From Clostridiaceae bacterium (GTDB taxonomy: Bacteria; Bacillota; Clostridia; DSM-8532), in contig JAAYTU010000125.1 of NCBI GenBank assembly GCA_012523705.1, positions 1-37,836 on the forward strand: a stretch of DNA of 37,836 nucleotides, in the 5' to 3' direction. Of the stretch, positions 21,531 to 25,331 are shown in pieces. Each line of letters begins with the position of its first letter. The stretch's first letter is position 1. The notes below the pieces were generated by a model. The model saw nothing but the letters and a program-made list of their open reading frames with translations. It was not told where the DNA came from and searched no databases. A program made the position numbers and the translations under genes.

Positions 21531-24500
21531 CTACATTGAGAAAAGTGATAATTGGCTACTTTGATCAAGTCCCTTAAGGCAACCGTGGCTCTCAAGAATT
21601 TCAATTACTGACTTTGACACACCTGATTTTATCTTTAATTCCTCAATGGAAACAAATTCCCCGGCTTTTTCTCTAGCCTCTACAATGCTGTTGGCAGCGG
21701 CCGTCCCCAGACCAGGCAATGAATTAAAGGGTGGCAGAAGCCCCCGGTCAGTAATTAAAACCCGGGTCGCATGAGATTTATACAAATCAACAGGCAAGCA
21801 CTTTATTCCCCTCAGATACATCTCTCTTGCCACCTCTAAATTGGTAATCTCATCCTTTTCGGTTTGAGTAGCATCTTTCCCCTTGGATTCAATATCAGCT
21901 ATCCTCTGGTTAACAGCATCAAGACCTTTAGATACAATATTTGCGTCAAAGGTATCTGCCCTTACAGATAAATAAGCTGCATAGAAGGCTTCGGGATGAT
22001 ATACTTTAAACCATGCAATACGGAACGCCATCATTACATATGCAGCAGCGTGGGCTTTAGGGAACATGTACTTTATTTTCTTACAGGAATCTATATACCA
22101 TTGGGGAACTTTGTTTTCGATCATTAAGCTTTCCTGCTCGGGCGTAAGGCCTCTGCCCTTTCTGACACTCTCCATAATCTTAAATGATTCCAAGGGGGGC
22201 AGGCCGTTCTGCATCAGATATATCATGATATCATCACGGGTACAAATAACCTGAGATAATGTAGTAACATTGTTTCTCACTAAATCCTGCGCATTATTCA
22301 ACCAAACATCGGTACCGTGAGACAATCCGGAAATTCGGATCAACTCCGCAAATGTAGTTGGCCTGGTATCCACAAGCATCTGACGGACAAATCTTGTGCC
22401 GAACTCAGGGACACCAAAAGTTCCTACCTCACTTTCCAAGTCCTCGGGAGAGACCTCCAAAGGCCCGGTACCGGAGAATAATTCCATTGTCTTTTTTTCT
22501 CCTATAGGTATGGTGGTTGCATCAACACCTGTCAAGTCTTCCAGCATCTTGATAACGGTAGGGTCATCATGGCCGAGAATATCAAGCTTCAATATTCTGC
22601 CGCTTATTGAATGATAGTCAAAGTGGGTTGTAATGATATTTGAACTAGTCTGGTCGGCCGGCCTTTGAATAGGAGTAAAATCATATATATCCTTGTAATG
22701 GGGCACAATCATTACTCCGCCCGGATGCTGACCGGTAGTCCTTTTTACACCGGTGCAGCCACCTGCCAGACGTTCAGTCTCAGCCCTTGTGCTTACTACT
22801 TCCCTCTCGTCCATATACTTTTTAACAAAACCATAGGCCGTTTTATCTGCAATTGTGGAGATGGTACCCGCTCTGAAGGTATAGCCTTTTCCGAAAAGCT
22901 CTTCGGTGTACTCATGGGCTCTTGTCTGATACTCGCCAGAGAAGTTCAAGTCAATATCAGGCTCTTTATCTCCATCGAAGCCTAGGAATGTTTCGAAGGG
23001 AATATCATAACCATCCTTTATTAGGGCCTGCCCACATACAGGACAGTCTTTTTCAGGCAAGTCAAAACCACAGGCTATGCTGGCGTCTTTTTCAAAGAAC
23101 TCAGAGTATTTACAGTTACCACATCGATAATGAGATGGTAAAGAGTTTACCTCTGTGATACCAATCAGATAAGCCACAAAGCTGGAGCCTACAGAGCCTC
23201 TTGAGCCAACTAGATAGCCGTCCTCAAGTGACTTTTTTACAAGCTTCTGAGCAATCATATACATTACTGAGAAGCCATTTTTAATTATAGAATTTAACTC
23301 CTTTTTCACCCTGGCTGAAACAAGCTCAGGCAACGGATCTCCATAGAGCTCGCGAGCCCTGTTCTCGCAGAGCCTTTTGATTTCATCCTCTGCCCCGTCC
23401 ATATGAGGGGGGAATGTGCCGTCCGGTATAGGCTCAACTACTTCTATAGATTCGGCTATGAGATTTGTATTGGTAACAACCACTTCATAGGCCTTGTCCT
23501 CACCTAAGTATTTGAACTCACTCAACATCTCTTCTGTGGTTCTGAAATACAAGGGTGCCTGTTGAACATCACTATATCCTTGCCCGGCTTGAAGAATTTC
23601 ACGGTATATATAATCATCAGGGTCTAAAAAATGAACATCACAAGTGGCTATTACTGGTTTATTGAGCTTGTCCCCCAGTTCAACAATTTTTCTGTTATAG
23701 TCCATAAGGGCTTCATCATCAGGCACATCACCACGTCTTACCATAAATTGATTATTACCTATTGGCTGTATCTCAAGATAGTCATAGTAAGTGGCAATCT
23801 TAATAATCTCTTCTTCAGGAAGCTGTTTATAAATTGCCCGGAAGAGCTCTCCTGCCTCACAGGCACTGCCTATGATCAGACCTTCCCTGTGCTTTTCAAA
23901 TAGACTCTTTGGGATACGCGGCCGTTTATAAAAATAATTTAGATGACTTTCTGATACTATCTTATATAGGTTTTTCAAGCCCTGCTGGTTCTTAACTAGG
24001 ATTACAGCGTGGTAGGTATCACAGTTTTTATAATCTATTTCACCCTTGCTGTTATATTGTTCATTGGCGATGAAATAAGCCTCTACGCCATATATAACTT
24101 TAATATCCTTGTCCTTCTTTTTAAGCTTATGTACTGTATTCTGGGCATCAGGAAAGGCCTGAGCCACGCCATGGTCAGTAATGGCAACAGCCTTATGTCC
24201 CCAAGAAGCAGCCCTGTTAATAATATCAGCCGTCGGGCATACTGCATCTAATTGGCTCATCTGAGTATGCAAATGCAGCTCAACCCTTTTAACTGGGGCA
24301 TTATCCATCCTGCTTTCAGTTTTAACATCAATTGGAAGAACATCCCTTGCTAAAACAACAAGCTCCTTGGAGTACATATCATATTGGGCTTCCCCGCTAA
24401 GTCTTACATACTGTCCCTTTACCAGTTTTTCCGATAAAAGCTTAAGCTCCTCTTCATCGGTAAAGAGCTTACATGTCAAGGATGAGGAGAAGTCGGTAAC

Positions 24501-25331
24501 ATCAAAGGTATATAAAAATCTTCCTGATTTAAGGCTCCTGGACTCTGCCTTAAGAATTTTGCCTTCAATAGTTATGGAACCTGAATTGGTAGTAACCATA
24601 TTCATTTTCATAACTTCGCCCCTTATACTTCTGCCGTATAAAATATTAGGATCCTTTTTAACAGACCTGCCCCTTCTTTTATACGGTGTCTTCCCTTCTG
24701 GGGAGGACTGAGTAGTCTTTGGCTTGCTATAGCCATCGGAATTGCTTTCACTAATAGCAGCCATCATCTCTGCAACTGCTTTAGCGTCCCTTTCTTCCTT
24801 CCTGGCAATATAGTCAACATTACTCTCATCATCAATCGAATCATAAAATTTAACCGCAATATCCTTTTGAAAAAGGTTATTAACGGCTTCTTCAATACAG
24901 CTATCCATACCGGCAGCTATCAAGATTGAAGAAGACTGATTGTTCAGCTTCACATTCAAAAACTTACCTGAAAGACTAAAATCAGCACATTCCAAAAAAG
25001 GATAGAATTGTTCCTTTTCAGCCTTTACCTTGCTTAGAACAAAATCTACCTGCCAGGGTTCAAATTGTGCAGCAATTTCAGGGGCAAAGCATGGCTTTAC
25101 TTTGACCTTAAGGTTAAGATCACAGGACAGCTCCTTCTCAAGGCCCTTTATCTGCTCAGGTTTTACACAATCATGACATTCTATATTTAGCTCTATTTTC
25201 TTATCGGTTTTGTAATAACAAAGATTCGTAATATAGGCTCTGGAAAAGACTTTCCTTAGCTTCTCATTTTCGCTGATATTTGTAAACGCCTCTAAAAGCG
25301 GGGCTTTTTTGAGAACGTCCTTATCCATCAT
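21531..25331 (-). CDS. polC: DNA polymerase III alpha subunit, PolC type, lacking the internal DnaQ-like exonuclease domain
   Basis: PolC C-terminal palm/fingers (FLGFDGDKEPDIDLNFSGEYQ, KLDILGHDDPTVIKML, zinc CxxC...CxxC, FPKAHAAAYVMMAFR), OB domain and PHP domain; 1266 aa with no VxDxETTG motif. Confidence 0.97.
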   Translation of the reverse strand: MMDKDVLKKAPLLEAFTNISENEKLRKVFSRAYITNLCYYKTDKKIELNIECHDCVKPEQIKGLEKELSCDLNLKVKVKPCFAPEIAAQFEPWQVDFVLSKVKAEKEQFYPFLECADFSLSGKFLNVKLNNQSSSILIAAGMDSCIEEAVNNLFQKDIAVKFYDSIDDESNVDYIARKEERDAKAVAEMMAAISESNSDGYSKPKTTQSSPEGKTPYKRRGRSVKKDPNILYGRSIRGEVMKMNMVTTNSGSITIEGKILKAESRSLKSGRFLYTFDVTDFSSSLTCKLFTDEEELKLLSEKLVKGQYVRLSGEAQYDMYSKELVVLARDVLPIDVKTESRMDNAPVKRVELHLHTQMSQLDAVCPTADIINRAASWGHKAVAITDHGVAQAFPDAQNTVHKLKKKDKDIKVIYGVEAYFIANEQYNSKGEIDYKNCDTYHAVILVKNQQGLKNLYKIVSESHLNYFYKRPRIPKSLFEKHREGLIIGSACEAGELFRAIYKQLPEEEIIKIATYYDYLEIQPIGNNQFMVRRGDVPDDEALMDYNRKIVELGDKLNKPVIATCDVHFLDPDDYIYREILQAGQGYSDVQQAPLYFRTTEEMLSEFKYLGEDKAYEVVVTNTNLIAESIEVVEPIPDGTFPPHMDGAEDEIKRLCENRARELYGDPLPELVSARVKKELNSIIKNGFSVMYMIAQKLVKKSLEDGYLVGSRGSVGSSFVAYLIGITEVNSLPSHYRCGNCKYSEFFEKDASIACGFDLPEKDCPVCGQALIKDGYDIPFETFLGFDGDKEPDIDLNFSGEYQTRAHEYTEELFGKGYTFRAGTISTIADKTAYGFVKKYMDEREVVSTRAETERLAGGCTGVKRTTGQHPGGVMIVPHYKDIYDFTPIQRPADQTSSNIITTHFDYHSISGRILKLDILGHDDPTVIKMLEDLTGVDATTIPIGEKKTMELFSGTGPLEVSPEDLESEVGTFGVPEFGTRFVRQMLVDTRPTTFAELIRISGLSHGTDVWLNNAQDLVRNNVTTLSQVICTRDDIMIYLMQNGLPPLESFKIMESVRKGRGLTPEQESLMIENKVPQWYIDSCKKIKYMFPKAHAAAYVMMAFRIAWFKVYHPEAFYAAYLSVRADTFDANIVSKGLDAVNQRIADIESKGKDATQTEKDEITNLEVAREMYLRGIKCLPVDLYKSHATRVLITDRGLLPPFNSLPGLGTAAANSIVEAREKAGEFVSIEELKIKSGVSKSVIEILESHGCLKGLDQSSQLSLFSM

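Follow-up and report, generated by a model that had tools for sequence, protein, structure and literature searches.

The window, the whole stretch of 37,836 nucleotides that was analysed, contains an open reading frame at positions 21531–25331 of the minus strand, on which all features described below are located. The frame encodes a DNA polymerase III alpha subunit of the PolC type with 1266 amino acids, as judged from matches to NF001688 (1589 bits) and TIGR01405 (1447 bits), both well above the cut-off, and from its Pfam domains. At a threshold of E<=10, the order of the Pfam domains is NI, NII, OB, PHP, polymerase, fingers and HhH, as expected for the PolC family. The N-terminal domains NI and NII (residues 13–205; 24717–25295) were identified with PF14480 and PF11490 (weak), and the OB domain (residues 253–330; 24342–24575) with PF01336. 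The catalytic features of a PolC are also present: the polymerase aspartates D792 and D794 in the motif PDIDLNFSG (22950–22958) and the third aspartate D917 in LKLDILG (22581–22583) are invariant in 35 PolCs that lack an embedded exonuclease (hereafter exo-less), the zinc-finger cysteines are retained, and a beta-clamp-binding-type motif, QLSLF, is found in the C-terminal sequence (residues 1260–1264; 21540–21554). The neighbours of polC are ordinary housekeeping genes, namely hisS, aspS, ahcY and genes for a signal peptidase and a purine-nucleoside phosphorylase, with the mra/mur/fts cell-wall and division cluster at a greater distance.

The protein is orthologous to canonical Bacillus-type PolC over the PHP domain, the polymerase domain and the C-terminus, the structural alignment with Geobacillus PolC (PDB 3F2B) showing 56% identity. 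An AlphaFold2 model of residues 347–1266, for which 35 natural exo-less sequences served as input, has a pLDDT of 87 and a TM score of 0.90 to 3F2B. That the gene encodes a functional replicative-type PolC forms part of the explanation developed below, which as a whole we hold to be rather probable.

The typical PolC feature that is absent from the protein is the DnaQ-like exonuclease inside the PHP domain: no RNase_T or other DnaQ-like (DEDDh) domain was detected by Pfam at E<=10 anywhere in the 1266 residues. The PHP domain (approximately residues 350–604; 23520–24284, from the alignment to 3F2B) is uninterrupted, PF02811 covering residues 351–516 in a single stretch, in agreement with the first-pass annotation. 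The loop at the junction, where the DnaQ-like domain is located in other PolCs according to an alignment of 168 sequences, consists of residues 418–440 (24012–24080). The alignment confirmed an intact set of nine PHP metal ligands: H353, H355 and D362 (24246–24275), H387 (24171–24173), E417 (24081–24083), H441 (24009–24011), C491 (23859–23861), and D565 and H567 (23631–23639). This agrees with the earlier reading of the metal-site motifs as intact and removes the objection that the ligands might be degenerate. As for the placement of these motifs, ATCDVHF at 23628–23648 was exact, whereas ELHLHTQMS and ITDHG are located at 24255–24281 and 24168–24182, a few bases from their annotated positions.

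Whether this PolC subtype had been described before was left open by the first-pass annotation, and it is in fact a published variant. According to the survey by Timinskas et al. (2013, PMC3919608), the DnaQ-like insertion in the PHP domain is the typical architecture of PolC (86%) and is not universal, 6% of the PolC sequences being without the Exo insertion, or 16% in systems that combine PolC with DnaE1. The same survey places exo-less PolCs exclusively in Clostridia and Negativicutes, except for one extra copy in Thermotogae, and the variant shown there has the same N-terminal domain, OB domain, continuous PHP domain, polymerase and HhH, occurs in the same taxa and is paired with DnaE1. 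With its continuous PHP domain, the 1266-aa PolC is a further member of this group. The accessible text of the survey counted the variant; an independent-loss count, a whole-genome DnaQ inventory and a comparison of the junctions were not found in it.

Our collection of PolCs consisted of 80 named loci, 30 loci that were the best-scoring among the matches listed from 391 genomes of the class, and 60 further regions. Since the list was ranked by score and the sampling was weighted toward exo-less sequences, the counts given here are not prevalences. Across 168 distinct aligned PolCs, the insertion site was bimodal, with a spacing from E417 to H441 of 13–38 residues in 56 exo-less PolCs as compared to 204–222 residues in 108 exo-bearing PolCs. 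Exonuclease motif I (DxETTG) was seen in 98 of 99 exo-bearing sequences and no vestige of the motif in three members of the host's family that were checked, which suggests that the domain is either present or absent as a whole. With no such vestige and with the negative Pfam search at E<=10, an exonuclease concealed elsewhere in the reading frame was rejected. Named carriers of exo-less PolCs include Heliobacterium mobile, a Thermosyntropha MAG, a Cuneatibacter and an Epulopiscium MAG. As a separate observation among the matches listed, one genome (G162, contigs C21 and C30) seems to have two PolC genes, both full-length, with frames of more than 1400 aa. Several other genomes of the class give four PolC matches, and PolC duplication may be commoner than reported.

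Within the family of the host (f1), 31 of the 32 genomes, each assembled independently, gave a continuous match across the junction, and the sole exception is an 82%-complete assembly (G008) without a PolC-level match. Together with the bimodal insertion site, this speaks against chance and rejects a deletion introduced during assembly, which had been raised as an objection. The exo-less PolC is fixed throughout the family.

The origin of the architecture was analysed in a maximum-likelihood tree of 143 PolCs from which the insert had been left out (a quick tree under LG+G4, in which L088 with L142 raised a long-branch warning). The exo-less PolCs are nested inside exo-bearing clades, and presence or absence of the exonuclease required 13 changes on the tree, at least ten of which were forced by well-supported branches. 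Placing all exo-less PolCs in a single clade was 1157 log units worse on a subset of 60 sequences (p-AU 9e-8), and a single origin was thereby rejected. In the same subset, distances in the exonuclease domain followed those in the core (Mantel r 0.81, a value reached in none of 999 permutations), which indicates that the domain has been inherited vertically. The first-pass annotation had left undecided whether the architecture is ancestral or a clean loss. An ancestral state that predates the insertion would be in line with the DnaE-type PHP domains, which likewise have no insertion, but we regard it as extremely improbable given the scatter of exo-less PolCs among exo-bearing ones, the rejection of one origin and the history shared by the exonuclease and the PolC core. 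Thus, the DEDDh domain has been lost from PolC repeatedly, at least ten times, and is not missing as a relic of a pre-insertion state. The host's family is placed in one clade with the exo-bearing families f54 and f80 and the loci L024 and L028, and its flank after the junction, DYKNCDTYHAVI, matches the flank after the exonuclease in f54, DYKKAKTYHAII. The deletion scars vary among lineages in both sequence and length.

We also searched the genome of the host, which is 99.7% complete, for other proofreaders. It gave no match to RNase_T (PF00929) or to the DnaQ family (TIGR00573), searches that were positive in 10 of 14 control genomes, and RNase_T was wholly absent from 18 of the 19 genomes of the family in the class sample. 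DNA polymerase I (L245, contig C43 of the same genome, 904 aa) showed a weak match to the exonuclease family without the DxE of motif I, in line with the inactivation of this exonuclease that is reported to be common in Firmicutes (PMC12926913). The second replicative polymerase is DnaE1 and not DnaE3, as assigned from its PHP signature; all nine PHP ligands are present in this gene (L182), which is cut by a contig end. MutS is encoded in the genome.

The two options named in the first-pass annotation, a separate DnaQ-like protein that proofreads in trans or proofreading by PHP, can be weighed against this inventory. The first is refuted for any recognisable DEDDh protein in the genome, and it could possibly hold for a protein of a highly divergent family or for a gene in an assembly gap. 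Some exo-less genomes (G012, G035, G072, G097, G114, G339 and G194) do encode stand-alone RNase_T proteins. By a hand tally, however, 14 of the 44 exo-less genomes have at least one RNase_T, and of the 46 exo-bearing genomes at most 22 have a second copy, so that stand-alone RNase_T is not enriched in exo-less genomes. With the negative searches in the host and in 18 of the 19 family genomes sampled, we judge a separate DnaQ-like protein to be highly improbable. The PHP option is compatible with all findings, and no candidates for replicative proofreading other than the PHP sites of PolC and DnaE1 were found among the recognisable proteins. In one member of the host's genus (G012, contig C20), a 279-aa ORF on the minus strand (L183) encodes a stand-alone DEDDh exonuclease that is absent from its congeners and was probably acquired; as read from the translation, it seems to adjoin a GTP-pyrophosphokinase-like ORF.

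The explanation that we favour, and consider rather probable, is that PolC has lost its DEDDh domain and that mispaired 3' ends are now removed at the PHP site of PolC, of DnaE1 or of both. In the ancestor of the 1266-aa PolC, the PHP loop from E417 to H441 would have contained the DnaQ-like domain, which would then have been removed by a clean in-frame deletion, the loss itself being evident from the phylogeny. Clostridia would have started with three candidate proofreaders, namely the PHP sites of PolC and of DnaE1 and the DnaQ-like domain of PolC, and the last of these would have been dispensable and repeatedly lost because the PHP sites were proofreading beforehand. Mispaired 3' ends would be excised at the multi-metal PHP sites that are left, with MutS-dependent repair presumably acting downstream.

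Known PHP domains provide a measure for this explanation. DnaE1 of Mycobacterium tuberculosis, in which PHP is the replicative proofreader, has the nine-ligand site in common with the 1266-aa PolC, where the pattern HHDHEH[C/H]DH is complete (PMC5636811). In that enzyme three zincs are coordinated by the nine ligands, and the exonuclease depends entirely on the Asp at ligand 8 (D226). A 29-residue loop adjoining the PHP site lines the primer groove, and the DEDD insertion of PolC is located in this same loop (PMC5636811). The mycobacterial protein differs in belonging to the DnaE family and in having a proven exonuclease, whereas the protein studied here is a PolC. Canonical PolC shows the reverse arrangement, in that it keeps DnaQ in the PHP loop, and in Geobacillus PolC, for which no nuclease was detected, ligand 8 is Asn (PMC3666897); the 1266-aa PolC has no DnaQ, a complete PHP site and Asp (D565) at this position, which supports the PHP reading. 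Further support comes from the loop between E417 and H441, which at 23 residues is close to the 22 residues between E72 and H95 in Taq, whose PHP is grouped with the nuclease-active ones, and above the 13 residues in nuclease-inactive E. coli (PMC3666897). Other exo-less lineages have loops down to 13 residues, so loop length is no general argument. Clostridial PHP sites of both PolC and DnaE1 have been termed 'active' by motif (PMC12926913). In the literature found, no PHP nuclease activity is reported for any PolC, and the one that was tested, from Geobacillus with its one substituted ligand, was inactive (PMC3666897). Based on the sequence and the model, PHP proofreading in the 1266-aa PolC is plausible.

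The nine ligands are intact in all 55 complete exo-less PolCs, from 13 lineages, and likewise in 107 of 108 exo-bearing clostridial PolCs; conservation alone is therefore no proof that PHP has taken over. The idea that the ligands are specially protected in exo-less PolCs was rejected, as the numbers of deviating cells (0 of 315 for the ligands and 5 of 778 for other near-invariant PHP columns) do not discriminate. Invariant ligands could equally reflect a structural or other role, which would give the same pattern. A separate observation in the PHP region concerns a family member from an 86%-complete MAG (L248; G017, contig C286), in which the conserved YKRPRxP motif has in-frame TGA at exactly the two positions where relatives have Arg codons, two codons from each other (AAA TGA CCC TGA). 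The remainder of the 1256-aa frame is open, and this may represent a pseudogene, an assembly error or something odder.

The rates of protein evolution were compared in nine contrasts between exo-less and exo-bearing sister lineages. The PolC branch was never shorter in the exo-less lineage (9 of 9 contrasts, ratios 1.01–1.59), but no consistent lengthening was seen for DnaE1 or RpoB (RpoB ratios 0.78–1.74). A mutator signature in RpoB and DnaE1 was thus rejected. The pattern suggests that PolC specifically has been slightly relaxed or adjusted, and not that the whole genome is in a mutator state, protein divergence being a loose proxy for mutation rate. The faster PolC could mean relaxed constraint, which would count against the PHP reading. 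When conserved columns were scanned for residues that had changed convergently in exo-less lineages, the differences seen were scattered and in part phylogenetic (e.g. at 472 and 929), none of them interpretable.

The acceleration of PolC, with mostly none in DnaE1, also bears on the alternative that PolC has been demoted, such that DnaE1 with its intact PHP performs most of the high-fidelity synthesis and PolC has a limited role that requires no proofreading of its own. The host encodes a DnaE1 with all nine ligands, some Clostridia have DnaE1 only according to PMC3919608, and that survey itself raises a division of labour of this kind. On the other hand, the acceleration is small, the catalytic aspartates, zinc-finger cysteines and clamp motif are retained in a highly conserved core, and even in PolC the PHP ligands do not vary, contrary to expectation if the fidelity of PolC has become irrelevant. 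We consider demotion unlikely, though still a serious alternative. That the polymerases do not proofread at all, nucleotide selection and mismatch repair being sufficient, is improbable in our view: MutS is encoded and the Pol I exonuclease is degenerate as well, but two complete PHP sites have been kept and RpoB is not consistently accelerated, poor as protein divergence is as a proxy for mutation rate. Returning to PHP proofreading, we give an even chance to the broader proposal of a PolC and DnaE1 replisome with wholly PHP-based proofreading, reached independently in at least ten lineages of Clostridia by deletion of DEDDh. Such a replisome would be the converse of that in Bacilli and E. 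coli, which retained DnaQ and had their PHP inactivated.

Deletions of the same domain from the PHP loop have been engineered in PolC of Geobacillus (3F2B) and of Staphylococcus aureus (PolC delta-N delta-Exo, PMC3656037), and the latter enzyme polymerises fast, with a kpol of 330 per second (PMC3656037). The 1266-aa PolC differs from these constructs in being natural, in retaining the N-terminal domain and in having a complete PHP site. No experimental work on the exo-less variant was found in the literature searched. To our knowledge, the repeated independent loss, the fixation throughout a family and the genome without a recognisable DEDDh proofreader are new relative to the literature found. 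The losses also have a bearing on the division of tasks in the PolC and DnaE1 replisome, which is experimentally uncharacterised. Most PolCs confuse a test of whether their PHP domain can proofread because the DnaQ domain is also present, whereas repeated natural losses in genomes without recognisable DnaQ provide clean test proteins and sister-lineage controls, and a genome without a recognisable DEDDh proofreader makes the question directly testable. Apparently the most recent of the losses seen occurred within a single genus (g151), in which L132 (G358, 74% complete) is exo-less and L146, L147 and L148 (G236, G291 and G375) are exo-bearing, a good pair for comparison of mutation spectra.
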